The position numbers were made by a program, and so were the translations under genes. Below the pieces are notes generated by a model, which saw only the letters and a program-made list of their open reading frames with translations, was not told the origin of the DNA and made no database searches. Positions 6,926 through 60,544 of a stretch of 64,000 nt of DNA are shown here, piece after piece. How positions within the stretch are numbered: the first letter of the stretch is position 1; every line of letters starts with the position of its first letter. Source of the stretch: Raineyella sp. LH-20 (GTDB lineage: Bacteria; Actinomycetota; Actinomycetes; Propionibacteriales; Propionibacteriaceae); contig NZ_CP137003.1 in the NCBI RefSeq assembly GCF_033110965.1, positions 1,426,001-1,490,000 of the forward strand, written 5' to 3'.

Positions 6926-9424
6926 ATGACTGATCGGGGGCGGCTGCGGGTCCTGCTCGGGGCCGCCCCCGGCGTGGGCAAGACCTTCTCCATGCTGGAG
7001 GAGGGGCTCCGGCTGCAGGACGAGGGCCGCGACGTCGTGGTGGCCGTGGTGGAGAGCCACGGCCGCGCGGCGACCGCCGCCAAGGCCGCGGGACTGGAGA
7101 CCGTGCCGCGTCGTACGGTGTCCTACCGCGGGGTGGAACTGACCGAGATGGACCTCGACGCGGTGCTCGCCCGGCGTCCCGAGCTGGCGCTGGTCGACGA
7201 GTTGGCCCACACCAACGTGCCGGGATCGGTGCACGAGAAGCGCTGGCAGGACGTGCAGGTGCTGCTCGACGCCGGCATCGACGTCATCTCCACGGTGAAC
7301 ATCCAGCACATCGAGTCACTCAACGACGTCGTCGAGCAGATCACCGGCGTCCCCCAGCGGGAGACCATCCCCGACCACATCCTGCGGGCCGCCGACCAGA
7401 TCGAGGTCGTCGACCTCGCCCCCCAGGCGCTGCGGGACCGGCTGTCCGGCGGGTTCGTCTATCCGGCCGACCGGATCGACGCCGCGCTGTCCAACTACTT
7501 CCGGCTCGGCAACCTGACCGCGCTGCGGGAGCTGGCCCTGCTCTGGCTGGCCGACGAGGTCGACCAGGCGCTGCTGACCTACCGCGAGGAACACGGCATC
7601 AGCAACACCTGGGAGGCCCGGGAGCGGGTGGTGGTCAGTCTGTCGGGCGGGCCCGAGGGGGAGACGCTGCTGCGGCGCGGTGCCCGGATCTCCGCCCGCT
7701 CCGTCGGCGGTGAACTGATCGCCGTCCACGTCACCAGCCAGGACGGCCTGCGCGCCGGACGCCCCGAGGCGTTGGCCCGGCAACGCGCCCTGGTCGAGAA
7801 GCTCGGCGGCAGCTACCACCAGGTGGTCGGCGAGGACATCCCCGAGGCCCTGGTCGAGTTCGCCCGCTCGGTCAACGCCACCCAGTTGGTGATGGGCGTC
7901 AGCCGACGGGGTCGCGTCCAGGCCGCGCTCACCGGGCCCGGCATCGGCGCGACCGTCATCCGTGACGTCGGCAGCATCGACGTGCACATCGTCAACCATG
8001 CCGCCGCCGGCGGCCGGTTCCAGCTGCCGCGGCTGGGCCGGGCGCTCAGCCTGCAGCGTCGGATCGCCGGGTTCGTGTTGGCGCTGCTCGGCGGCCCGGC
8101 GCTCACCGCGCTGTTGGTCAACGTACGCACCCCGGACGCGATCACCGCCGACGTGCTGGCCTACCAGTTGCTGGTCATCCTGGTCGCCCTGCTCGGCGGG
8201 ATCTGGCCGGGGCTGTTCGCCGCGCTGCTGTCCGGTGTCTCGGTGGACTTCTTCTTCATGGAGCCGGTGGGGACCATCACCATCGCCAAGCCGGTGCATC
8301 TGATGGCGGTCGGCCTCTACGTGGTCAACGCGTTGCTGGTCAGTTATCTGGTCGACCGGGCCGCTCGCCGGTCCCGCTCCGCCCGCCGCTCGGGCATCGA
8401 GTCGGAGCTGCTGCAGTCCATCGCCGGCAGCGTGCTGCGCGGTCAGCAGGCGGTGCCCGCGCTGATCACCGAGACCCGGGAGGCCTTCGGGCTGAGCGCG
8501 GTCCGGCTGGTGCAGGACGACAGCGTGGTGGCCGCTGACGGTGACCCGGCGCCGACCGAGGTGCCGACCGCCCTCCCGGTCGGGGACCACGCCGTCCTCG
8601 AGCTCTACGGCGGCGACCTGCAGGCCTCCGAGCGGCGTCTGCTGGCCGTCATCATCGCCCAGCTCGAGGCGGCCCTGGAACACCGCGACCTCGAGGAGGT
8701 GGCCAGCGAGGTCGCCCCGCTGGCGGCCTCCGAGCGGGTCCGCAGTGCCCTGTTGTCGGCGGTCGGCCACGACCTGCGCCGCCCCCTGGCGGCGGCCGTC
8801 GCGGCGGTCAGCGGGTTGCGGGCGGCGTACGACCATCTCAGCGCCGACGACCGCGACGAGCTCCTCTCCACCGCCGACGAGAGCCTGGCGACCCTGTCGT
8901 CGGTGGTCACCGACCTGCTCGACGTCAGCCGGCTGCAGGCCGGGGTGATCGCGGTGTCGCTGAGCCCGACCGACCCCGCGGAGGTGATCGTGCCGGCCCT
9001 CGACGAGGTCGGCGTCGGCCCCGACCGGGTGGAGATCGACCTGGCGCCGGACTGTCCGCCCCTGCTGGCCGATCCGGTGCTGCTGCAGCGGGTGCTGGTC
9101 AACCTGCTGCTGAACGCGACCCGCCATGCCCCGCCCGGGACGCGGGTACGGATCGCGGCGAGCTCGTTCGGCGCCACCGTGCAGATCCGGGTCGTCGATC
9201 ACGGTCCGGGCATCCCGCCGGAACGGCTCGACGACGTCTTCGTCCCCTTCCAGCGGCTGGGCGACACCGACAACACCACCGGCCTCGGGCTGGGACTCGC
9301 ACTGTCCAAGGGCTTCACCGAGGGGATGGGTGGGACACTGACACCGGAAGACACCCCCGGCGGCGGGCTGACCATGGTGGTGTCGTTGCCGGTTGCCGAC
9401 CCGGCACGGCCGGAGGGGGACTGA
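6926..9424 (+). CDS. kdpD: Osmosensitive K+ channel histidine kinase KdpD
   Basis: Membrane sensor kinase of the KdpD/KdpE system. At 832 residues it is of usual length. Order of domains: N-terminal KdpD domain with Walker A GAAPGVGKT (residues 12-20) and DELAHTN; a UspA-like domain (about 230-355) with GGPEGETLLRRGAR; a four-helix DUF4118 region (about 375-475); a GAF-like linker; a HisKA box VGHDLRRPL with phospho-acceptor His near 615; and an ATPase domain with NLLLNATRHA, DHGPGIP and GLGLGLALSKG. The usual T of HDLRTPL is R here, which should not affect phosphorylation. Confidence 0.96.
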   Translation: MTDRGRLRVLLGAAPGVGKTFSMLEEGLRLQDEGRDVVVAVVESHGRAATAAKAAGLETVPRRTVSYRGVELTEMDLDAVLARRPELALVDELAHTNVPGSVHEKRWQDVQVLLDAGIDVISTVNIQHIESLNDVVEQITGVPQRETIPDHILRAADQIEVVDLAPQALRDRLSGGFVYPADRIDAALSNYFRLGNLTALRELALLWLADEVDQALLTYREEHGISNTWEARERVVVSLSGGPEGETLLRRGARISARSVGGELIAVHVTSQDGLRAGRPEALARQRALVEKLGGSYHQVVGEDIPEALVEFARSVNATQLVMGVSRRGRVQAALTGPGIGATVIRDVGSIDVHIVNHAAAGGRFQLPRLGRALSLQRRIAGFVLALLGGPALTALLVNVRTPDAITADVLAYQLLVILVALLGGIWPGLFAALLSGVSVDFFFMEPVGTITIAKPVHLMAVGLYVVNALLVSYLVDRAARRSRSARRSGIESELLQSIAGSVLRGQQAVPALITETREAFGLSAVRLVQDDSVVAADGDPAPTEVPTALPVGDHAVLELYGGDLQASERRLLAVIIAQLEAALEHRDLEEVASEVAPLAASERVRSALLSAVGHDLRRPLAAAVAAVSGLRAAYDHLSADDRDELLSTADESLATLSSVVTDLLDVSRLQAGVIAVSLSPTDPAEVIVPALDEVGVGPDRVEIDLAPDCPPLLADPVLLQRVLVNLLLNATRHAPPGTRVRIAASSFGATVQIRVVDHGPGIPPERLDDVFVPFQRLGDTDNTTGLGLGLALSKGFTEGMGGTLTPEDTPGGGLTMVVSLPVADPARPEGD

Positions 9425-9430
9425 CCGACG

Positions 9431-10147
9431 ATGAAGATCCTGATCGCTGACGACGATCCGCAGCTCGTCCGCGCCCTGCGGATCACCCTCGGCGCGGAGG
9501 GCTACCAGATCGTCGCCGCGCCCGACGGCGCTCGGGCCATCCAGGCCGCGGTCGACCATCAGCCCGATCTCGTCCTGCTCGACCTGGGCATGCCGGGCCT
9601 CGACGGCATCGACGTCATCCATGCCCTGCGCGGCTGGACCCAGATCCCCGTGCTGGTCGTCTCCGGGCGGACCGGGGCGGCGGACAAGGTGGAGGCCCTG
9701 GACGCCGGCGCCGACGACTACGTGACCAAGCCGTTCTCCATCCAGGAGCTGCTCGCCCGGGTGCGCGCCCTGACCCGGCGGGTGCCGAGCGCCGAACCCG
9801 AGCCGATCGTACGGATCGGCGACGTGTCGATCGACCTGACCGCCCGCAGCGTGACCCGGACCGTCCGTGGCGAGACCCACCACGTACGCCTCACGCCGAC
9901 GGAGTGGCGGGTGCTCGAGCTCCTCGTCCGCAACCCCGGCCGGCTGGTGACCCGCCAGACCCTGCTCACCCAGATCTGGGGGTCGGACCACGTCGCCGAC
10001 ACCGGCTACCTGCGCCTCTACATCTCCCAGCTGCGCAAGAAACTCGAGCCCGATCCGCACCTGCCGCGCTACCTGCTCACCGAGGCCGGCATGGGTTATC
10101 GGCTGGAACTGCCCGATCAGCCTCCTCGTCCGGGCAGGAATGCGTAG
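9431..10147 (+). CDS. kdpE: KdpE response regulator
   Basis: OmpR-family regulator of the kdp operon. The receiver domain (1-115) has the acidic pocket DDD at 7-9, phospho-acceptor Asp51 in LVLLDLGMP and Lys in VTKPF. The winged-helix DNA-binding domain fills the C-terminus, including LTPTEWRVLELLVRNPGRLVTR and YLRLYISQLRKKLE. It starts six bases after kdpD. The gene order F-A-B-C-D-E is the standard one. Its operator could lie anywhere in 1965-2250, but none can be named. Confidence 0.95.
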   Translation: MKILIADDDPQLVRALRITLGAEGYQIVAAPDGARAIQAAVDHQPDLVLLDLGMPGLDGIDVIHALRGWTQIPVLVVSGRTGAADKVEALDAGADDYVTKPFSIQELLARVRALTRRVPSAEPEPIVRIGDVSIDLTARSVTRTVRGETHHVRLTPTEWRVLELLVRNPGRLVTRQTLLTQIWGSDHVADTGYLRLYISQLRKKLEPDPHLPRYLLTEAGMGYRLELPDQPPRPGRNA

Positions 10148-10237
10148 CCTGGGGACACGGCCGATCGTCGGCGCCGGCGCGGCCGATCCCATCCGACTTG
10201 AGCAGACATCCCGACTCGAGCACACATCGGAGGCATC

Positions 10238-11371
10238 GTGTCCGTCCACAAGGAGTTGCCCACCCTGGATGACCTGATGGAGCTCGCCGCGCCCCATCAG
10301 CTGGCCGTCACCGTGTACCTGCCGTCGGCTCCCACGGTGATCGGCAGGGCCGAGACCCGTACGGCCGTGCACAGTGCGATCACCGCGGCGATCGGACGGT
10401 TCCGGGAGACCGGCCAGCTGACTCCCGCGCTGGAGAGCGGCCTGCGGGCCCAGCAGGACGAGCTGGAGGCCGACCCGGAGGTGTGGGGGGCGTTGTCCTC
10501 GTCGCTGGCCGTCTTCCTCACCCCGGAGTTCCACACCGAATGGGTGCTGCCGAACAAGCTGGTCAGCCAGTGGCAGGCGTCGAGCTGGTTCGACCTGGGC
10601 CAGCTGGTCCGGGCGTTCGCCGGCGAACAGCACGCGTACGTGCTCACCCTGTCGGTGAACCGCTGGGCGCTGTGGGAGGCGACGCCCACCCGGCGGGCCG
10701 AGAAGCTGACCGTGGCCGGGGCCGAGGCGATCGCCGACGCGGCCGCGGCCACCAACCGCGACTCGCTGCGCGACGCCCGGGAGGACCGCCAGTGGTCCGG
10801 CGACGAGGGGCGTACGCAGCTGCTGGAGACGTACGCCTCGCGGGTCACCGAACTGGTCGATGCGACGCTGCTGAAGGCCGACCCGTCGGCCGACGTGCCG
10901 CTGTTCCTGCTGGCCGCGGAGCCGCTGCTGTCGCGGGTCCGGCCCGCCGACGAGCGTCGTCCGGTGGTCCGGGTCCCCGGGACGCCCGACGAGGCCGGCG
11001 CCGACCAGGTGGATCGTACGGTCCGCGACCGGTTGCCCGACCTGAACGCCCGCCGGATCAGCGACCAGCTCGCCCGGATCGCCGACGACACCGCCCAGGG
11101 ACTGGTCGTCACCGAGCTGGCCGACATCGCCCGGGCGGCGGTGCAGGGGGCGGTCGACGTGCTGGTCTACGAGTTCACCGTCGACGTGCTCGGCACCTTC
11201 GACGAGGCGACCGGCGAGATCACCCTCGACGAGAACGGCTACGACCTGGTCTCCCGGATCGTGGTGGAGGTGGTCCGGCGGGGCGGCCGGATCATCCCGG
11301 TGCGCGACGCCGAGGTGACGTCGCCGGTCTGGAACGGGACGGCGGTGGCCCACCTGCGGTTCGCGGTCTGA
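10238..11371 (+). CDS. baeRF-like protein (bacterial release-factor-1 homologue family)
   Basis: A 377-residue soluble protein that resembles the actinobacterial baeRF domain family, relatives of archaeo-eukaryotic release factor eRF1. Evidence is the overall layout: an N-terminal DLMELAAP start, a central AEPLLSRVRP segment, and the C-terminal RIVVEVVRRGGRIIPVRDAEV followed by NGTAVAHLRF, seen in several baeRF subfamilies. CGGAGG lies four bases before the GTG start. It is 90 bases after kdpE and may share its transcript, but a link to potassium is not shown. Proposed roles in ribosome rescue are predictions. Confidence 0.7.
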   Translation: MSVHKELPTLDDLMELAAPHQLAVTVYLPSAPTVIGRAETRTAVHSAITAAIGRFRETGQLTPALESGLRAQQDELEADPEVWGALSSSLAVFLTPEFHTEWVLPNKLVSQWQASSWFDLGQLVRAFAGEQHAYVLTLSVNRWALWEATPTRRAEKLTVAGAEAIADAAAATNRDSLRDAREDRQWSGDEGRTQLLETYASRVTELVDATLLKADPSADVPLFLLAAEPLLSRVRPADERRPVVRVPGTPDEAGADQVDRTVRDRLPDLNARRISDQLARIADDTAQGLVVTELADIARAAVQGAVDVLVYEFTVDVLGTFDEATGEITLDENGYDLVSRIVVEVVRRGGRIIPVRDAEVTSPVWNGTAVAHLRFAV

Positions 11372-49745: not shown

Positions 49746-50576
49746 ATGAGGCATCCGCGACCAATCGCATCCGTGATCGGCATCGTGCTGGTCCTGGCCG
49801 CCCTGCTCGGGCTCGGTGGCTGCGGGTCCGCAGCGCGTTCGACGTCCGGGCCGTCGGGCGTTACGTCGGCCGCGCAGGGTGGTTCGACACCGCGGGTCAC
49901 CCTCACCGTCTTCGCCGCCGCGTCGTTGGCCGGCCCGTTCGACGAGATCGGCACCGCTTTCGGCGCCGCGCACCCCGGGGTCACCGTCCGCTACAGCTAC
50001 GGCGGTTCGTCCGATCTGGTCAGTCAGCTCGCGGCCGGGGCGCCGGCCGACGTGCTGGCCACCGCTGACGAGCGGACCATGCAGCAGGCCCGGGACAAGG
50101 CGTTGGTGCCGCAGTCGACACTGTTCGCCACCAACCAGCTGGCCATCCTGGTCGCCCCGCACAACCCCCTGGGCATCACCGGAGCCAAGGACCTCGCCCG
50201 TTCCGGACTGAAGGTCGTCGTGTGTGCCCCCCAGGTGCCCTGCGGTGCGGCCACCGAGCGCGCCCTGCAGGCCGCCGGGATCCCCATCACGCCGGTGAGC
50301 GAGGAAGCCAACGTCACCGACACCGCCGGCAAGGTCACCTCCGGCCAGGCCGACGCCGCAGTCGTCTACGCCACCGACGTCGCCAAGGCCGAGGCCGCCG
50401 GCACCGGCACCGGGGTCCCGTTGGGCGTCGAGCAGACACCCAACCGCTACCCGATCGGCGTGACCGCGGGCGGTGCATCCGGTGCGAACGCCGACGTCGC
50501 CCGGGCGTACGTGGCGTACGTGACCGGTGCGGAGGGGCAGGCGATCCTGGCCAGGGCGGGTTTCGGCAAGCCGTGA
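49746..50576 (+). CDS. modA: Molybdate ABC transporter substrate-binding lipoprotein
   Basis: Binds molybdate or tungstate outside the membrane. 276 residues: signal with lipobox LGLGGC (lipidated Cys near residue 26), then a periplasmic-binding fold opening [17 protein letters not shown]. It continues with [26 protein letters not shown] and [17 protein letters not shown], typical of ModA. Oxyanion contacts are expected at the Ser of AAASL and the Ser of GGSSD. First gene of modABC. Confidence 0.94.
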
Positions 50577-50583
50577 ACCGTCC

Positions 50584-51498
50584 ATGAGTTCCGCTGAGGA
50601 GGCCCGTCGGGGTCGTACGTCTGACGGGGGTCGTACGTCTGACGGGGGTCGTACGTCTGACGGGGGTCGTACGTCGAACGGGGATCGCGGGCGCCGGCCG
50701 GAGCACCCCGTCGACCGGTACGCGGTCCCCGGCTGGCTGTGGGTCCCTGCGGTGGTCGGCCTGCTCTTCCTCGCGCTGCCGCTCGCGGCGATGGTGCTCG
50801 GCACCGACTGGCGCCACTTCGGCGTCCTGGTCACCTCGCCGTCGGCTCGGATCGCGCTGTGGTTGTCCTTGCGCACCGCCGCGGCGGCCACCGTGCTCAG
50901 CATGGTCTTCGGCACCCCGCTGGCGGTCGTGCTGGCCCGCGCCCGGCCGCGCGGCCACCGCCAACTGCGCGCACTGGTGATGCTGCCGCTCGTCCTTCCG
51001 CCGGTCGTCGGCGGTCTGGCCCTGCTGCTCACGTACGGCCGCACCGGTCTGCTCGGCCGGTGGCTGGAGGTCGCCGGCATCCACATCGCGTTCAGCACCA
51101 CTGCGGTGGTGCTCGCCCAGACGTTCGTCGCGATGCCGTTCCTGGTGATCTCGCTGGAGGGGGCGCTGCGCTCCGGCACCGAGGCGTACGAACGGGTCGC
51201 GGCCACCCTCGGCGCCCGGCCCGGCCTGGTGCTGCGGCGGATCACCCTGCCGCTCGTCGCGCCGGGACTGGCCTCCGGGGCGGTGTTGGCGTTCGCCCGG
51301 GCGCTGGGGGAGTTCGGCGCCACACTGACTTTCGCCGGTTCGCTGCAGGGCACCACCCGGACCCTGCCGTTGGAGGTCTATCTGCAGCGCGAGGTCGACC
51401 CGGCTGCGGCGGTGGCCCTGTCGTTGGTGCTCGTCGCCGTCGGGGCGCTCGTCGTGCTGACCGTCGGGGCGCGGGCCCTCGGGGGTGACCGTGGCTGA
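50584..51498 (+). CDS. modB: Molybdate ABC transporter permease
   Basis: A 304-residue permease with about six helices. The ABC permease loop reads [25 protein letters not shown], seen as AATLGA and RRITLP, followed by [14 protein letters not shown], typical of ModB/CysT. The ATG at 50584 lies seven bases after modA. Residues 10-34 are four copies of GRTSDG encoded by an 18-base tandem repeat (50611-50682), an unusual cytosolic extension. The 3' end overlaps modC by 14 bases. Confidence 0.93.
50611..50682 (+). repeat. 18-bp tandem repeat inside modB
   Basis: Unit GGTCGTACGTCTGACGGG, four copies from 50611, the last variant. In frame, encoding GRTSDG repeats at the ModB N-terminus. Confidence 0.95.
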
Positions 51499-52651
51499 CG
51501 TACGACTCGACGTGACGCTGGCGGCCCGGCAGGTGGCGGTGGACCTCGAGGTGGCCGAGGGCGAGGCGGTCGCCGTCCTCGGCCCGAACGGCGCCGGCAA
51601 GTCCACCCTGCTGGGACTGCTCGCCGGCACCCTGGCGCCGACCTCCGGCCGGGTGCTGATCGGCGGCAGGGACGTCACCCGGCTGCCGCCGTACCGCCGC
51701 AGGGTGGCGCTGCTCGCCCAGCAGCCGCTGCTCTTCCCGCACCTGAGCGTGCTGGAGAACGTCGCCTTCGCCCCGCGCGCCGCCGGACTCGGCCGGGCCG
51801 CCGCCCGCGCTCTGGCCGGGGAACGGCTGGAGACCGTCGGCATGTCCGGCTACGCCGACCGGCGGCCGGGGCAGCTGTCCGGCGGCCAGGCCCAGCGGGT
51901 GGCGATCGCCCGGGCGCTGGCCGCCGACCCCCAGGTGCTGCTGCTCGACGAGCCCCTCGCAGCCCTCGATGTGGCGGTCGCCCCGCAGCTGCGCGGGGTG
52001 TTGCGGGAGGTGGTCGAGGGACGTACGACGCTGGTCGTCACCCACGACCTGGTCGACGTGGTCACGCTGGCGGAGCGCACGGTGGTGCTGGGGGCCGGCC
52101 GGGTCGTCGAGGATCGCAGTGTCCGCGATCTGGTGGAGCGCCCGCACAGCCGGTTCGCCGCGGAGCTGGCCGGCCGGGTGCTGTTGGCGGGGACCGTGGC
52201 GCCCGGTGACGGGACGGCGGGGCGCGGTGACGGGGTGGTGCTGCAGACGGCGTTGGGCCCGGTCGCCGGCCTGTGGGAGGACGACACCGCCGCCGGCCCC
52301 GGGGCCCGTGCAGTGGCCCTGGTGGATCCGGCGGCGGTGAGCCTCCATCGCGAGGCCCCGGAGGGGAGCCCCCGCAACTGCTGGCCGGTCGAGGTCGAAG
52401 GGATGGAACCTCGGGGCGGGCAGCTGCGGGTGGTGGCCCGGGGTGTGACGTCCGATGGGCCTCCTCTGGGCCCTGTGGGCCCTCGCGATGGCGGGATCCG
52501 CGGTCTGTCGGACGTCTCGGAAAGGGGACCGGACGTACGCCTCGCCGCGGACATCACCCCCGCGGCGGCCGCCGAGCTGGCGGTCGCGCCGGGGCGACAC
52601 CTGTGGTTCGTGGTCAAGGCCCAACAGGTACGGGTGTACCGCGGGCACTGA
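51485..52651 (+). CDS. modC: Molybdate ABC transporter ATP-binding protein
   Basis: A 388-residue ATPase energising ModB. Walker [10 protein letters not shown] near residue 35, Q-loop [14 protein letters not shown], signature [15 protein letters not shown], Walker [12 protein letters not shown] and switch VTHDL. The C-terminal 110 residues resemble a TOBE molybdate-binding domain but carry an inserted segment (about 318-355). A second GTG at 51491 is possible. The overlap with modB implies translational coupling. Confidence 0.92.
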
Positions 52652-52694
52652 CCGGTGGACGGGGGGGACGGGAACGGGGAACGGCGGGCCCGGA

Positions 52695-53630
52695 TCAGCT
52701 GGCCTTGGGCAGCCGGTCGCCGACCCAGGAGGTCGACCAGGCGGTGTCCGCCGGCGCCGGATCCACCACGTACGCCCGGCAGCCGCGCTCGCCGGCCGCC
52801 CAGATCGCACCGTCGCGGCCGGCGACGATGAGGGCGGTGGACAGGATCTCGGCCAGGCCGGCGTTGAGCGCGACGACTGTGGCGGACCGGGCGCCGTGGG
52901 CCGGGCGGTGGGTGCGCGGGTCGACGATGTGGTCGCCGCGTTCGTACGCCCCGGAGGTGGCGATCGCCGCGTCCTCCAGCTCCTCGACCCGGACGATCGC
53001 CTCCGGGTCGTCGGGGTGGCGGATGCCGATCCGCCACGGCTGGCCGGGGACGGGGTGGCCGCGGGTGACGATGTCGCCGCCGGCGTTGACGCAGACGTTG
53101 TCGAGGCCGCGCTCGACGAGCAGATCGGCGACCAGTTCGGCCGCCCAGCCCTTGACATAGCCGGACGGGTCGAAGCCGCCGGGCACCGCCCACGGGTCGA
53201 AGCGGCCGCCGGTGACCTCGCGGCCCCAGCGGCAGGCGGCGATCACCTCCATCATCGCGGCGTGGTCGGGATCGGCGGCCCGCAGGTCCGTCTCGGCGAG
53301 CCGGCCGGCGCGCAGGGCGCTGACCAGGGACGTCTCACGGAAGGGGGAGAACACGGCGTCGACCCAGTGCATCAGGTCGACCGCCTCGTGGATCGTCGCC
53401 GCCAGCTCCTCGTCGGACGGCCACGGCCGGGTGCCCTCGACCAGGTCGATCACCACGACCGTGCCCCACATCTCCTGCAGATGGGTGTAGTGGCGGGCGT
53501 CTGGGCGGCGGCGGGTCACCTCGGGGCGGGCGGAGGCCTGCGAGCCGGGGCTGTCGGGGACGGCGCTGTCGGGGACGGCGCTGCTGGGGACTGGGGTGCC
53601 GGGGGCGGGAGTGGGGACGGCGTCGGACAT
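52695..53630 (-). CDS. apbE: FAD:protein FMN transferase
   Basis: ApbE-family enzyme attaching FMN through a phosphoester bond to a Thr of FMN-binding proteins; acts outside the membrane in many bacteria. 311 residues. Motifs: HWVDAVFSPFRETS, GGFDPSGYVKGWAAE (the DPSGxxKGWA core), NAGGDIVTRG and ATSGAYERGDHIVDPRTHRP. The first 40 residues are a Pro/Ser-rich extension without clear signal sequence. The ATG overlaps the stop of the FMN-binding gene by one base, so enzyme and probable substrate are co-translated. Confidence 0.92.
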   Translation of the reverse strand: MSDAVPTPAPGTPVPSSAVPDSAVPDSPGSQASARPEVTRRRPDARHYTHLQEMWGTVVVIDLVEGTRPWPSDEELAATIHEAVDLMHWVDAVFSPFRETSLVSALRAGRLAETDLRAADPDHAAMMEVIAACRWGREVTGGRFDPWAVPGGFDPSGYVKGWAAELVADLLVERGLDNVCVNAGGDIVTRGHPVPGQPWRIGIRHPDDPEAIVRVEELEDAAIATSGAYERGDHIVDPRTHRPAHGARSATVVALNAGLAEILSTALIVAGRDGAIWAAGERGCRAYVVDPAPADTAWSTSWVGDRLPKAS

Positions 53631-54349
53631 CACAGACCTGCCTTCTGGATCGCTGAGGCGAGGGACGTACGGAAGCCCTCGGTGGTGTAGGTGGCGCCGG
53701 AGACGCCGTCGACGGTGGCGGACTGCGCGGCCATTGCCTGGTCGACGAGCAGCGGCGCGGCATAGCTGTTGATCCGGTTCGAGTGGCCGGCGCTCATCGG
53801 GAGCTGGGTCCACTGGATGCCGGTGATGGTGGTGCCGGAGACGGTGATGGTGACCTGCATCGGGCCGTACGGCGACTGGTAGGTCGTCCCGGCGTACCCG
53901 GTGCCCGTTGCCGTGCCGCCGGACCCGGACCCGGTGGACCCGGACCCGGCCGTGCCCGATCCCGTCGTGCCCGATCCCGTCGTGCCCGATCCCGTCGTGC
54001 CCGATCCCGTCGATCCGGAGCCAGTGCTTCCGGGGCCGGTCGACCCGAGGCCGGTCTGTCCGCCGAGGCGCCGGCCGTCGTGTTCGTCGTCGCCGTGGCG
54101 GTCGCCGTGGTCGTACGCCTCGTCCTCCCCCTCGTCGTCGCCCCGGAACAGTTCGGGGACGGCCAGTGGGCCGGACTGCCGGGTGGACGCCGACGCGCCG
54201 CCGGACGGACTGGCGCCGGGGAGCTGGCCGGTGCCGGGGAGCTGCCCGGTGCCGGTCAGGGTGGCGCGGGCGGGGTTGAGGACCAGCACGCCGGCCACCC
54301 CGGCGACGGTGGCCCCGAGGACGAGGGCGGTGGTGATCGCAGGCTTCAT
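53630..54349 (-). CDS. FMN-binding domain protein
   Basis: A 239-residue protein: N-terminal helix or signal (ITTALVLGATVAGVAGVLVL), then an acidic and His-rich linker and a Ser/Gly/Thr repeat (about 100-145), then an FMN_bind domain ending near the C-terminus. The flavinylation motif is DGVSGATYTTEGF, whose Thr in SGATYT is the likely FMN acceptor for ApbE. The domain lies outside the membrane, so it can accept electrons from the adjacent ferric-reductase-like protein. Confidence 0.9.
   Translation of the reverse strand: MKPAITTALVLGATVAGVAGVLVLNPARATLTGTGQLPGTGQLPGASPSGGASASTRQSGPLAVPELFRGDDEGEDEAYDHGDRHGDDEHDGRRLGGQTGLGSTGPGSTGSGSTGSGTTGSGTTGSGTTGSGTAGSGSTGSGSGGTATGTGYAGTTYQSPYGPMQVTITVSGTTITGIQWTQLPMSAGHSNRINSYAAPLLVDQAMAAQSATVDGVSGATYTTEGFRTSLASAIQKAGL
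53952..54011. repeat. 15-bp tandem repeat inside FMN-binding gene
   Basis: GTGCCCGATCCCGTC in four perfect copies from 53952, in frame, encoding the SGTTG repeats of the linker on the minus strand. Confidence 0.95.
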
Positions 54350-55799: not shown

Positions 55800-55984
55800 G
55801 ACTCCACAGGACCGCCGGATCCTGTGCCCGATCTGTGTCGGCTCCCCTCGGTTTCTTGTGAACGGCCGCGGTATCTGGTGAACGCCCGTGAGGGTCCCCG
55901 AGCGGGGTCGGGGGGCATCCCTGAACGGTCCCCCGAGAGCCCGGCGCCGCGCCGCGAACGCTCGATCGGTGCCACCGACGAACC

Positions 55985-55990
55985 TAGACT
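55985..55990 (+). promoter_or_regulatory. Candidate -10 element of the kinase-GTPase operon
   Basis: TAGACT in the divergent region 55800-56063, predicting a leader of about 67 bases before the ATG at 56064. A repeated TGTGAACGGC/GGTGAACGCC pair lies at about 55857-55883. Confidence 0.4.
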
Positions 55991-56063
55991 GGCCCCACCC
56001 GCGTGGCGGGGACGGGACCCGCCGGGGTCCCGGGAGCCGTACCAGGGGGAGGAGACGGGGCGC

Positions 56064-57527
56064 ATGGTCGCCGGACAGACCACCACGGTCGAGGCCACCG
56101 GGGTGCTCTTCGAGCCCCGCCCGGACGATCCGGGCGCGCTGGTCGACGCCGCCGGACGCCAGCCGGTGATCGACCTGACCCGCCGGCTGCGACCGGCCTC
56201 GACCCCGATCGACGAGAAGAAGCTCACCCCGTTCCTCGGCTACTGGGGCCAGCTGCGGCCGGGCCAGAGTCCCGAGGCGTACGTCATCAAGGTGATCCTG
56301 GCCGGCACCACGCCGCCCGGCCGGCCCGACGCCGGCGCCCCGATGGTCGGCCCGCAGGCCGCCCGGCTGCTGGCGAATGAGGAGGAGGCGGCCCGGCGCA
56401 ACGGGCTGCTGCCCGACGGTGTGCCGGCCACCGGGGTCGGCGGCGGGTACGCCTGGGTGGTGCGGCGCTACATCCACGGTCTCACCCTCACCCAGACCCG
56501 CACTCAGGGCGGCCTGGAGGGCAACCGGGCGGTGCTGGCCCGGCTGATGCTGGAGCGGATCGTCGAGCTGCACACCCGCACCTACAACGGCCACCCGCTC
56601 TACCACGGCGACATCAAGCCGGCGAACGTCATCGTCCAGGTCTCCGGCCGGGAGATCACCGGGGTGGAGCTGATCGACTACGAGTCGGGCGGCGCGACGG
56701 GTGACGAGGGCCCGGCGTGGCGGCACGCGACGTTCCAGTTCGCCAGTCCGGAGCACTTCCTCTCGCCGCGGATCGACCAGGCCTCCGACGTCTTCTCCTG
56801 GGGGCTGACCGTCCTCGACATGTACGCCCCCAACCGCCACCCGTTCGTCGGCGGGCTGGACGATCCGCGGGAGTACGAGGACGCGTACGGCACCGGACGC
56901 AGCGCCGACGAGGCGGTGCTCGCCGCGATCACCGACCCGGTGGTGCGTGAGTGCGTCCGTCTCGCGCTGACCGTACGGTCCGACAACCGGCCCAGCGCCC
57001 GCGCCCTCTACAGCCGGCTCACCTCGGGCAGCACCGCCCGCCCGGCCGGCCCGGTGCAGGCGCCGACGACGACCTTCGAGCTGCCCCGCCGCGATCCGGA
57101 GGACCCGGATGCGACCGCCCTGCGGTCCTACGCCCTGCCGCCCGCCGCCCCGTCGGCCGGCGGGACGACGGCCCCGTACCCCGGCGTGACCGCGCCGCAG
57201 GCCGGCGTGACCGCTGCGTACGACGACGGGACCCGGGTGGCGCCCACCCGGGCGGTCTACCTGCCGCTGGCGGCGGAGGAACCGCCTCCACCGGTGGCCT
57301 GGCCCCGCGCGGGGCTGTTGGCCGACACGGCCGATCCGGACTCGGTGCCGGCCCAGCTCGGCGCGTGGTGGCGGCAAGTGTTCGCCGTCGAGGGCTATCT
57401 CGGCGCGGAGCGGTTCGGCCCCGGTCACTGGGTCGGCTATCTGGTCGCGGCGGTGTTCGCCGGCGGCGTGGTGGGCGTGCTGGTGGGCGTGGTCCTGCTG
57501 GCCCTCGGAAGGGTGGTGGTCCCGTGA
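56064..57527 (+). CDS. Protein kinase-like membrane protein of a GTPase system
   Basis: A 487-residue protein with a eukaryotic-type kinase fold. Candidate ATP-binding Lys76 lies in AYVIKVIL. The catalytic loop is HGDIKPANVIVQ (His181, Asp183, Lys185) with HGD for HRD. The metal motif is DYE (Asp205) for DFG, and ASPEHF stands for APE. Key catalytic residues are present, so activity is plausible. A Pro/Ala linker (about 330-410) leads to one helix near the C-terminus (YLVAAVFAGGVVGVLVGVVL). AGGAG lies about ten bases before the ATG. The stop overlaps the next start. First gene of a four-gene coupled operon. Confidence 0.85.
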   Translation: MVAGQTTTVEATGVLFEPRPDDPGALVDAAGRQPVIDLTRRLRPASTPIDEKKLTPFLGYWGQLRPGQSPEAYVIKVILAGTTPPGRPDAGAPMVGPQAARLLANEEEAARRNGLLPDGVPATGVGGGYAWVVRRYIHGLTLTQTRTQGGLEGNRAVLARLMLERIVELHTRTYNGHPLYHGDIKPANVIVQVSGREITGVELIDYESGGATGDEGPAWRHATFQFASPEHFLSPRIDQASDVFSWGLTVLDMYAPNRHPFVGGLDDPREYEDAYGTGRSADEAVLAAITDPVVRECVRLALTVRSDNRPSARALYSRLTSGSTARPAGPVQAPTTTFELPRRDPEDPDATALRSYALPPAAPSAGGTTAPYPGVTAPQAGVTAAYDDGTRVAPTRAVYLPLAAEEPPPPVAWPRAGLLADTADPDSVPAQLGAWWRQVFAVEGYLGAERFGPGHWVGYLVAAVFAGGVVGVLVGVVLLALGRVVVP

Positions 57528-57679
57528 GCGTGTCCTCCTTCGACGAGGCCGAGCGGCGCCGGCTGGCGCGGCTTGCCCGGCATGCTGCCCTGCTCCGCTA
57601 CACCCGTCGGGTGCGGATCCTGCGATCGGTCGGGCTGGTCGTCGCGGTGCTGGTCGCCCTGTTCGTGGTGATCCACTGA
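57524..57679 (+). CDS. 51-residue single-helix membrane peptide
   Basis: A strongly basic N-terminal half (ERRRLARLARHAALLRYTRR) and one helix (ILRSVGLVVAVLVALFVVIH) running to the C-terminus. The GTG overlaps the kinase stop and the TGA overlaps the GTPase ATG by one base, which argues that it is a true gene. No family recognised. It may anchor or signal to the GTPase. Confidence 0.75.
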   Translation: MSVSSFDEAERRRLARLARHAALLRYTRRVRILRSVGLVVAVLVALFVVIH

Positions 57680-58824
57680 TGACCCGCTATCTGTGTCCCC
57701 AGTGCGCGGTGCACTACCGGGCGAACGAGTTCACCACCTACACCGCGCAGAGTGAGCGGTGGGCCCCGCCGCATCGCGACGCGATGAGCACTCTGGTCCG
57801 TGGGGTGCGGACCCTGCTCGGCGTCACCGTCGCGGACCACGACCGGGCGCGGGCCGAGCACCTGGAGATGCTGCGCCTCGGCGTGCACCACCGGTGTCCG
57901 CGCGGCCATGTGATGCCGGCCGAGTTCCTCCGCCGGGAGACCCTGCCGATCGGCCTGATCGGGCCGTCCTCGGTGTCGAAGTCGACCTATCTGGCGGTGT
58001 TGCTGCAGCGGATCGTCGGGATGACCGACCTCGCCCCGATGGGCCTCACCTTCACCGTCGAGGAGCGTTCCAAGGGCATCTACCAGCGCGACTACGTCAC
58101 CCCGCTGGCGATGCGCCGCCCGCCCGAGCAGACCCGGCTGGAACGTACGTCGCCGCTGGTGGTCCGGATGCACCGGGACTGGGCCGCCGACGAGGACGTC
58201 AACTTGCTGTTCTTCGACGCCGCGGGGGAGGGATATCGCGACGCCCGGTCCAGCGCCGACCTCAACCCGTACCTGTCGGTGATGGCCGGCGCTCTGGTGT
58301 TCTGCTCGCCGGTCAACCTGGCCTTCGGCCCGGAGACCGGGTTCGCGCTCGCACCCGGGATCGAGGGGGCGACCGCGCCGGGAGCGGGCACGGTGGTCGC
58401 GGCGTTGCAGTCGGCCCGTACGGTCGCGGACGGTCGACGCGACCCGGTGCCGACCGGCGTCGTGGTCGCCAAGTGCGACGAGCTCGCCCCGCTGGAGGCC
58501 CGCCAGCCGCACCCGGGCCAGGCGATCCCGCTGGACGCCCGGCTGTTCTACGGACACGAGGACGCCTACCTGCGCCGGCAGTCCCGCTGGCCGTACGAAC
58601 TGCTGGCCGCGCACGGACAGGCGATCCTGGCCGAGGCCGAGCGGTTCTCGCTGCTGACCCGCTACCACGCGGTGTCGGCGACCGGCAGCCCGGTGAACAA
58701 CCTGGGGATGTTCGACACCATCGCGCCGGTCCGGGTGCACGAACCGCTGCTCGGGCTGCTGCACGACATGGGTCTGCTGGTCGGGGCGACCGCGCTGTAC
58801 GGGCCGGAGCGGGTCCATGGCTGA
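57679..58824 (+). CDS. P-loop GTPase with N-terminal zinc ribbon (DO-GTPase-like)
   Basis: A 381-residue protein. Cys6 and Cys9 (CPQC) with Cys73 and His77 (CPRGH) suggest a split zinc-binding site around an insert. The P-loop is GPSSVSKST (95-103), with Ser100 where nearly all P-loop proteins have Gly. The Walker B/G3 motif is DAAGEGY (Asp180), and G4 is AKCDEL (Lys265, Asp267), giving guanine specificity. This matches TRAFAC-like GTPases paired with GAP1 proteins in predicted conflict systems. It overlaps the GAP1-like gene by eight bases. Confidence 0.8.
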   Translation: MTRYLCPQCAVHYRANEFTTYTAQSERWAPPHRDAMSTLVRGVRTLLGVTVADHDRARAEHLEMLRLGVHHRCPRGHVMPAEFLRRETLPIGLIGPSSVSKSTYLAVLLQRIVGMTDLAPMGLTFTVEERSKGIYQRDYVTPLAMRRPPEQTRLERTSPLVVRMHRDWAADEDVNLLFFDAAGEGYRDARSSADLNPYLSVMAGALVFCSPVNLAFGPETGFALAPGIEGATAPGAGTVVAALQSARTVADGRRDPVPTGVVVAKCDELAPLEARQPHPGQAIPLDARLFYGHEDAYLRRQSRWPYELLAAHGQAILAEAERFSLLTRYHAVSATGSPVNNLGMFDTIAPVRVHEPLLGLLHDMGLLVGATALYGPERVHG

Positions 58825-60544
58825 GATCCAGCAGGCCGTCATCGGCTGGGGCCCGACCAGCAACGGGCTGGGGGTGCTCGGCGCCTCGGTCGGGTGGCCG
58901 ACGATCGACGGTCTGCCGTGGCTGCCGGACGCCGCGCGGACGTTCCTGCCCCGCGGTTCCGACGCCGAGGTGATGCGCGGCACCGAACCGCCCTGCGGGC
59001 TCGAGGCCCGGCCCACCGAGCACGGCACCCTGCTGGTCTCCAAGGTCTACCTCGGCCGGGTCGGCCGGCCGGGCACCTTCACCGCGCACTGCCTGCTCGA
59101 CCCGACCGGCCGGCAGTGCGCCCACGACCTGTTGGAGCTGGCCCGCGACGGCGTGTTGCTGCGCCGCGAGGAACAGCCCGTCGGCGGCACCCTCGAGGTG
59201 CTCGGCCTGCCCGCCCGCCGCACCCGGCCCGAGCCGGGCGGCGTCCCGGCCGACCTGCTCGCCCTGCTGTTGGCGCACCTCGCGGACCGTACGCCGCTGC
59301 TGCTGCGGACGGCCGACCGGGGCGGCGGGGTGGAGACCCTGTCGGCACTGGCCCACGCGCTGCCGCGGAAGGTCGCGGCGGACCTGTGGTGGTCCACCTT
59401 CGTCGCCCAGCCGGACGACCCGGCGGAGGTCGGTGGGCCGGGTGTGGGGCTGGTGGTGCCGCCGTTCTCGGCGACCGGGGCAGCGGAGCCGGACGCCTTC
59501 GGCGCGCCGGTCCGGCTGGACCTGGCCGGGCGGGCCGATCCGCTGGGCCGGGCCGATCCGCCGGGGCGGGCCGGCCTGCCGGAATCGACCGGGGAGGTCA
59601 TCGATCTCGACCGCGGGCCGGTGCCGACCGACGACCGTGCCCGTGCTCTGCTCCGCAGCTACCTGGACCAGCCGGAGCGGGCGGCGGAGGCGGACGGGGC
59701 CGACGCGTTCAGCGCCGGACTGGACGCCCTGGTCGTCGACCCGGCGCTCCCGCTCGACGAGCGCGGCATGGACCTGCTGGCCGCGGAGGTGGGCCCGTCG
59801 ATCTTCGCCCGGCTGCTCGCCGGCCCGCACGCGATGGCCCGGCTCGCCGAGATCGTCCGGGCCCGTCGCCGGCTGCCGTACCGCACCCTGTGGACCGCCG
59901 TCCCTGCGCTGACCGACGCGATGTTCGCCTGGTTCGGGCCGGTGCAGGCCGACCCGGAGACCCAGGCCCGGGCCCAGCGGGTGATCTGCACCACGATGGA
60001 CTCCCGCAATCTCGTCCGCCTCGTCGCCCGGCCGCTGGGCCGTGACGCGGCGGACTACCGGCCGGTGGTCGCGGACCGCAGGCTGGCCTCCGCGTTGGCC
60101 GGGCTGGCTGGCCCGCTCGAGGCGTACGAGTGGCGGGTGCTGACCGAGGAGTGGAGCCCGGTCGTCGACGCCGCCGTGGTGTCCTGGCTCACCGGCTGGA
60201 CCGACGCCCCGGCAGACCTCGCCCGGCTCGCCGCGGACCATCCGGCATTCGTCGCCGGGCTCGACGCGGCCCTCGCGGAGGTGGCCGCCGACCCCGGCAC
60301 GACCCCGGCGGACGTACGCTCCCGGCTGGCGACCTGGCGGGGACTGCCGGCGGAGGAATGGGCCGACCTGCTGCTCGACTGCCCCTCCGCCCCTGCCGGC
60401 GCTCCCCTCGCGGCACTGGCACGTCTCGACGTCCGTGACGTACGCCAGGTCCTGCGCCGGGCCTGGCCCCGGCTGGCCGCCCAGGCCGGCATCCCGGCGG
60501 CGGTCGCCGACGAACTGCGGGTCCGGGGGCTCGGCGGCTTCTGA
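58817..60544 (+). CDS. GAP1-like GTPase-associated protein
   Basis: A 575-residue soluble protein. The first 150 residues (IQQAVIGWGPTSNGLGVLGAS, split at WGPT; then EPPCGLEARPTEHGTLLVSKVYLGR and RPGTFTAHCLLDP) resemble the N-terminal domain of GTPase-associated protein 1, followed by middle and C-terminal helical regions. GAP1 proteins accompany prokaryotic GTPases in computationally predicted conflict systems; their biochemical role is not established. I assign it by sequence style, position and coupling to the GTPase. A CGTTCCCGCGGGAACG palindrome lies 35 bases after its stop. Confidence 0.75.
   Translation: MAEIQQAVIGWGPTSNGLGVLGASVGWPTIDGLPWLPDAARTFLPRGSDAEVMRGTEPPCGLEARPTEHGTLLVSKVYLGRVGRPGTFTAHCLLDPTGRQCAHDLLELARDGVLLRREEQPVGGTLEVLGLPARRTRPEPGGVPADLLALLLAHLADRTPLLLRTADRGGGVETLSALAHALPRKVAADLWWSTFVAQPDDPAEVGGPGVGLVVPPFSATGAAEPDAFGAPVRLDLAGRADPLGRADPPGRAGLPESTGEVIDLDRGPVPTDDRARALLRSYLDQPERAAEADGADAFSAGLDALVVDPALPLDERGMDLLAAEVGPSIFARLLAGPHAMARLAEIVRARRRLPYRTLWTAVPALTDAMFAWFGPVQADPETQARAQRVICTTMDSRNLVRLVARPLGRDAADYRPVVADRRLASALAGLAGPLEAYEWRVLTEEWSPVVDAAVVSWLTGWTDAPADLARLAADHPAFVAGLDAALAEVAADPGTTPADVRSRLATWRGLPAEEWADLLLDCPSAPAGAPLAALARLDVRDVRQVLRRAWPRLAAQAGIPAAVADELRVRGLGGF

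Follow-up and report, generated by a model that had tools for sequence, protein, structure and literature searches.

A compact kinase, microprotein, GTPase and GAP1-like gene module of Raineyella related to DO-GTPase2/GAP1-N2 systems

The closest described relatives of the genes reported here are the GTPase-centric GAP1-N2 systems, for which a role in conflict has been predicted (Kaur et al. 2020, PMC7159879). A third theme outlined in that paper combines an active kinase with PP2C and vWA proteins, and pore-forming SLATT effectors with two transmembrane (TM) segments are described there as fused to GAP1 in GAP1-N2 systems. In the literature searched we found no experiments on DO-GTPase/GAP1 systems, and no paper naming Raineyella was among the matches listed for Raineyella kinases or GTPases. 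We analyzed a 64,000-nucleotide stretch of Raineyella sp. LH-20 (“the window”; contig NZ_CP137003.1, positions 1,426,001 to 1,490,000, from a genome of 3.63 Mb on a single contig), in which four genes at 56064-60544 encode, in order, a protein kinase, a microprotein, a zinc-ribbon GTPase and a GAP1-like protein. This module is a compact variant of the predicted class, and its recurrent membrane microprotein is a new element.

In common with the kinase theme as it is outlined by Kaur et al., the module has a zinc-ribbon DO-GTPase with the Walker B Glu, a GAP1 gene directly downstream of it and an active-looking TM kinase. It differs from that outline in that FNIII, PP2C, vWA, a second TM-GTPase and GAP1-C are all missing and the microprotein is added. 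Relatives in genus g19 (genera, genomes, loci and families carry our working handles) are nearer to the published theme, with an N-terminal extension on the kinase and a TM segment on GAP1. No PP2C or vWA gene lies beside the kinase in the window, the rest of the genome not having been searched for them. The operon contains no gene for an FNIII-repeat component, its flanks being a flavoprotein and a GntR regulator, and no effector gene was recognized in it. Many parts of the published versions are variable. As a natural minimum of four genes, this module offers a tractable core for biochemistry.

An earlier note on this DNA, made from the letters alone, had placed four overlapping genes in a row here, and all of the open reading frames (ORFs) were found where it had put them. 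They lie on the forward strand with overlaps of 4, 1 and 8 bases, in order, and their translation is probably coupled. A self-written codon-usage gene caller returned the identical four-gene set; this is a consistency check only, because three of the four genes sat in its training set. The module is real, conserved and not a product of chance, and its order recurs in other genera. Conservation of the four-gene order with the micro-gene, which the note had named as a check, was seen in 11 of the 197 genomes sampled from the family and in five genera: four genomes of the Raineyella group (the GTPase and GAP frames of one, G061, being broken), one of g2, two of g9, one of g15 (G084, where the order is split across two contigs) and three of g19.

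The GTPase gene (57679-58824) encodes a DO-GTPase2-like protein of 381 residues with GPSSVSKS, DAAGE, AKCD and SAT motifs. The P-loop, DxxG and KCD motifs previously listed for it are all present, but in the P-loop (G-PSSV-S-K-S) the Gly before Lys is replaced by Ser. Against the DO-GTPase2 profile PF19993 it scored 18.1 bits (E=0.0023), under the 27-bit cut-off, and the copy in genome G022 also fell short (21.1 bits). Compact GTPases from outside Raineyella exceeded the cut-off in 6/6 cases scanned (L057, 35.9 bits; L019, 29.1; L017, 29.2; L061, 40.0; L056, 37.3; L058, 50.5). C6, C9, C73 and H77, the putative ligands of a split zinc ribbon, are invariant in all ten aligned rows, and so are K101, D180, G183, K265 and D267. 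The Walker B Glu of DO-GTPase2 is present as D180-x-x-G183-E184, with Glu in nine of the ten rows and Asp in L057. Two N-terminal zinc ribbons are usual in the DO-GTPase2 proteins of GAP1-N2 systems; one split ribbon is visible in the window GTPase. In a 66-row GTPase tree the ten compact rows fell on one branch (support 88/82, under the level that the tool stars) and grouped (91/92) with nine GTPases from families f91 and f90, apart from both groups of canonical kinase-theme GTPases.

Directly 3' of the GTPase gene lies the GAP1-like gene (58817-60544), which shares the 8-base overlap with it in the window and is adjacent to it in relatives when both are on one contig. Its product is compact, at 575 residues, and resembles GAP1-N2 and GAP1-M in its N-terminal part. 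A GAP1 profile match had been named beforehand as the check on this protein; alone, it gave no Pfam match at E up to 10, a result overturned by its relatives and by profile-profile comparison. Among nine members, three from g19 matched GAP1-N2 (PF20013, 24-bit cut-off), namely L056 (38.0 bits), L057 (27.8) and L058 (23.9), while six had no match; the E-values of the g19 proteins were 2e-9, 2.8e-6 and 4.8e-5. When the family was compared by hhalign with seven canonical GAP1 proteins (Pfam-confirmed in five cases), the match reached 93.4% (E=2.4e-7), stayed at 93.4% without the g19 rows, and spanned the later part of GAP1-N2 and GAP1-M. For the two controls the values were 0.3% and 0.1%. A profile built without g19 recovered one g19 protein at 2.6e-13 (whole genome) and another at 9.3e-17 (small protein set). 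None of the nine members matched GAP1-C (PF20052) at E up to 10. For the N-terminal part, homology is well supported by the g19 Pfam matches, the profile recovery and the hhalign result relative to its controls. Judged by their sequences, then, the GTPase belongs with DO-GTPase2 and the 575-residue protein with GAP1-N2, each as a divergent relative of its family, and the identities given in the earlier note hold at the family level. No solved relative of either family was found below E 0.26, and single-sequence structure prediction was unusable (predicted local distance difference test scores of 37.6 for the GAP1-like protein and 31.6 for the GTPase).

The first gene (56064-57527) encodes a Hanks-type Ser/Thr kinase of 487 residues with a predicted tail anchor. 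It matched Pfam Pkinase with E=3.7e-7 and 30.2 bits, just short of the 31.7 cut-off, and a profile built on seven relatives matched PknB structures (8.5e-15; best solved relative, 3f61). K76, E106, H181, D183, K185, N188, D205, E230 and D242, which we take to be catalytic residues, are invariant in 7/7 aligned rows, and the protein carries an HGDIKPANV motif. By hydropathy it has a single strong hydrophobic segment at about residues 460-481, followed by about 6 residues. The previous description of a kinase-fold protein with one C-terminal helix is borne out by these features, and a catalytically active kinase with a C-terminal membrane anchor is plausible. A role of the kinase in sensing a trigger had also been proposed and is conjectural: with about 6 residues trailing the TM segment, no extracellular sensor domain is visible. 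The catalytic domain is shared with PknB-type bacterial Ser/Thr kinases, from which the protein differs in its tail anchor, in having no visible extracellular sensor and in having DYE or DFE in place of DFG. PADLOC matches of the kinase to PD-T4-6 and mad6 (up to 2.5e-10) were judged to be generic kinase similarity. The g19 kinases (L056-L058) have a long N-terminal extension with W-containing repeats that looks like a beta-propeller by eye; the two that were scanned showed no clear Pfam family there.

Between kinase and GTPase lies a micro-ORF (57524-57679) of 51 residues, whose GTG start overlaps the kinase stop. It had been described as a basic, single-helix peptide, which is correct as far as it goes; residues 32-50 are in addition a strong TM segment (mean hydropathy 2.86). 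The N-tail ahead of it is basic, with a net charge of +6 and an R-x-R preceding the membrane. According to the positive-inside rule, the microprotein is predicted to lie N-in, with its basic tail in the cytosol. A micro-ORF is found between kinase and GTPase in the ten compact loci that were counted and also in G061.

We favor, at a probability of roughly 45%, the view that the module is a compact GTPase switch, tethered to the membrane and gated by the kinase, with homology to the DO-GTPase2/GAP1-N2 systems. In this view the tail-anchored Ser/Thr kinase would join the single-TM microprotein in a platform on the inner membrane face. With its basic cytosolic tail and TM helix, the microprotein would serve as an adapter that keeps two otherwise soluble proteins, the zinc-ribbon GTPase and GAP1, at the kinase. 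The nucleotide state or the assembly of the GTPase-GAP1 pair could be set by phosphorylation, be it of the GTPase, of GAP1 or of the microprotein tail, and this pair would act on a target encoded elsewhere. The gene order, the family homology, the TM segments seen by hydropathy, the conserved catalytic residues and the recurrence of the micro-ORF are directly supported; complex formation, phosphorylation targets, direction of control and output, and with them the mechanism, are what we infer.

Several observations weigh against such a switch. Seven of the ten compact GTPases have Ser or Thr in place of the P-loop Gly that precedes Lys, the three g19 rows retaining Gly, and because this Gly is lost nucleotide binding is not assured; the Ser/Thr proteins may be weak nucleotide binders or pseudo-GTPases. 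Five loci of family f91, from three genera (L130, L131, L133, L135 and L139), count on both sides. In each, a kinase recognized by Pfam (above the cut-off in three, below it in two) immediately precedes the GTPase, and the downstream protein of this set, L140 included, is GAP1-like (hhalign 82.5%; 62% against canonical GAP1). These loci share the kinase-GTPase-GAP1-like order, which favors the switch, and their GTPases belong to the nearest tree group, but they have no microprotein, and their kinase and GTPase genes overlap or lie at most 28 bases apart. (At L140 and L142, of family f90, the protein upstream of the GTPase had no Pfam match.) The microprotein itself evolves fast. Its pairwise dN/dS (ratio of nonsynonymous to synonymous change) within Raineyella is 0.49-1.43 over 51 codons, compared with 0.17-0.40 for the kinase, 0.14-0.29 for the GTPase and 0.26-0.39 for GAP, with synonymous distances probably compressed by GC bias, and just three of its columns, start Met included, are invariant across 11 rows. 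Lastly, the patchy distribution across the family (11/197) would be expected of a defense system too.

A role as an anti-invader conflict system, which would sense infection and trigger an effector, has been proposed for GAP1-N2 systems, and the earlier note had named conflict, next to signaling, as a candidate role here; we regard it as unlikely for this module. In its favor are the homology to systems predicted as conflict systems (Kaur et al. 2020, PMC7159879), the patchiness just mentioned and the presence in G061 of another DO-GTPase2 gene near a transposase-like gene pair (a gene for an 1132-residue protein lies there as well; all labels by eye). On the other hand, the operon contains neither an FNIII gene nor a recognized effector gene between its flavoprotein and GntR flanks, and PADLOC has no family for the microprotein, the GTPase or GAP1. 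Ten neighbors were scanned with PADLOC and only two had matches: a ModC-like protein (matching mad3 along part of its length at 1.8e-30, among others), judged to be generic ATPase similarity, and the GntR regulator, whose match was weak and likewise judged generic. A search with the window GTPase through 72,556 records of plasmids and 50,697 of phages gave no match at E up to 1e-5. In the Raineyella group the module occupies an identical chromosomal place in 4/4 genomes, with constant upstream genes and downstream genes of two kinds. Because the place is the same in all four genomes, the neighbors' PADLOC matches look generic and other DO-GTPase2 genes of this genus are patchy (one Hsp70-type locus in G044 and the gene in G061), we favor a core signaling module in Raineyella over a mobile defense island. 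No other DO-GTPase2 gene was reported in G000 or G022; these blanks in the Raineyella group are weak because that search missed the window's own divergent GTPase.

Single components were found somewhat differently from the complete order. With the window GAP protein as query, GAP was found in 8/197 family genomes; the GTPase alignment matched in 20/197, nine of which lie beyond the 11 carriers and lack the compact order as called. The GAP alignment matched in 5/245 genomes of the order sample and in 1/346 of the phylum sample (its own genome only), where the GTPase alignment matched in 5/346. A related GTPase was present in 21/197 genomes of the class sample, and none of the 17 readable stretches among the 19 fetched around these GTPases had the compact order with a microprotein. 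The genome searches scored some first-look candidates per genome, so the absence counts are weak. Among 39 stretches, L137 and L146 yielded no GTPase or GAP1 by the gene caller. L015 was left out as the same region as L012, L016 was left out of A5 because a contig end cuts its GAP, and L014 was left out of A5 and A7 for its broken frames. Raineyella antarctica was the sole named relative found (best segment, 65% identity).

The microprotein has counterparts beyond the compact loci. Canonical kinase-type loci of genus g42 (L054 and L147-L156) encode a basic-boundary single-TM peptide of 39-64 residues in 11/11 cases, although at a position unlike that in the compact loci, between the second GTPase and the vWA gene. 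These 11 represent one genus and are those that show the vWA/PP2C layout among 23 places, 20 of 33 (mostly the strongest matches) plus three more. Pfam confirmed the kinase in 4/4 loci scanned, PP2C in 2/2 and vWA in one of two (24.5 and 23.3 bits, cut-off 23.8); the remaining labels rest on motif or length. Over the 22 peptides, compact and canonical, the N-tail is net positive in every one, R-x-[RK] occurs near the TM segment in 21, and the pooled GC content at codon positions 1/2/3 (0.72/0.52/0.88) is coding-like. In 10/11 canonical peptides the Thr of V-T-P, V-T-R or M-T-P is kept, as read by eye. The likeness between the two sets is one of architecture and is not a demonstrated sequence homology.

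To gauge this recurrence, we counted small TM ORFs in 21/21 true slots but in only 4/152 control gaps, the slots being chosen by regular expressions and the controls being other same-strand gaps of 105-500 bases across 64 stretches; the control was devised after the peptides had been seen. With a 22nd, false slot in L062 included, the comparison is 21/22 versus 4/152 (Fisher 4e-22, treating related loci as independent). Three of the four control matches also adjoin system genes: one comes right after the GTPase of L062, and the other two come right before the kinases of L130 and L131. An earlier count, in which gaps ran from -40 to 600 bases, gave 0/136 control pairs with a small TM ORF. When the micro-ORF slot was shuffled by dinucleotides, such an ORF arose in 13 of 1000 shuffles.

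We tentatively suggest that single-TM R-x-R microproteins are an unrecognized core subunit of actinobacterial kinase-type DO-GTPase/GAP1 systems, in minimal four-gene and canonical forms alike: a membrane adapter, possibly a phospho-target, that lets the kinase control the GTPase switch. A word search of the main text of Kaur et al. (2020, PMC7159879) found no such microprotein, and the supplementary data of that paper may list a small TM gene. As a core subunit, if it is one, the microprotein would provide a route for the soluble parts to the membrane, and gene-neighborhood surveys would have missed it because it is shorter than 65 residues.

It could be argued that the micro-ORF is a translational-coupling leader only, with a functionless product. 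It overlaps both neighboring genes, and its residues are weakly constrained (dN/dS 0.49-1.43). However, the TM segment with its basic boundary persists across five genera and reappears, differently placed, in the canonical loci of a sixth, and chance small TM ORFs are as rare as the 4/152 control gaps indicate; we consider a pure leader improbable. Very doubtful is the idea that the microprotein is itself the effector, a membrane-active peptide held inert by the GTPase, GAP1 and the kinase whose release would depolarize the membrane: in its small size, single TM segment and positive charge it is like TisB, Hok and other type I toxins, and GAP1-N2 systems do have the SLATT pore-forming effectors introduced above, but the microprotein is constant (21/21 true slots) whereas effectors are said to vary.

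Apart from the kinase-gated switch that we favor, several further features of related loci were noted. Small single-TM ORFs of 62-70 residues directly follow a second, membrane-type gene at L128 (12810-12998), L136 (12585-12797) and L145 (10622-10831), loci that are Hsp70-type or near that type, and because of these the micro-gene may extend beyond kinase-type systems. A DO-GTPase2 locus in G044 (L171, 9201-18818) lies between two Hsp70-like genes (label by eye); no such locus was reported in the window's genome. In the ten canonical loci L147-L156 the kinase is followed by a gene for 106-114 residues on the opposite strand, and in 8/10 by a further gene for 477-496 residues with one or two TM segments, the other two loci reaching the end of the stretch; these extra genes are perhaps further parts of the system. 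In G061 (L014, about 8100-10925) the GTPase and GAP1-like genes are each split over two frames, by sequencing error or decay.

Upstream of the kinase, the region 55800-56063 (forward strand) has a GGAGGAG stretch resembling a ribosome-binding site ahead of the kinase ATG. A consensus scan gave no sigma-70-like site in this region (the promoter and terminator scan was uninformative), and the promoter placed here is for that reason a presumed one. The downstream neighbor of the module is a convergent gene for a GntR regulator, and the upstream neighbor is a divergent gene for a ferric-reductase-like flavoprotein. Beside the flavoprotein gene, at 49746-54349, are ModABC-like transporter genes followed by ApbE-like and FMN-binding-like genes (labels by eye), and this upstream neighborhood, from the ModABC-like genes to the flavoprotein, recurs in the four genomes of the Raineyella group.

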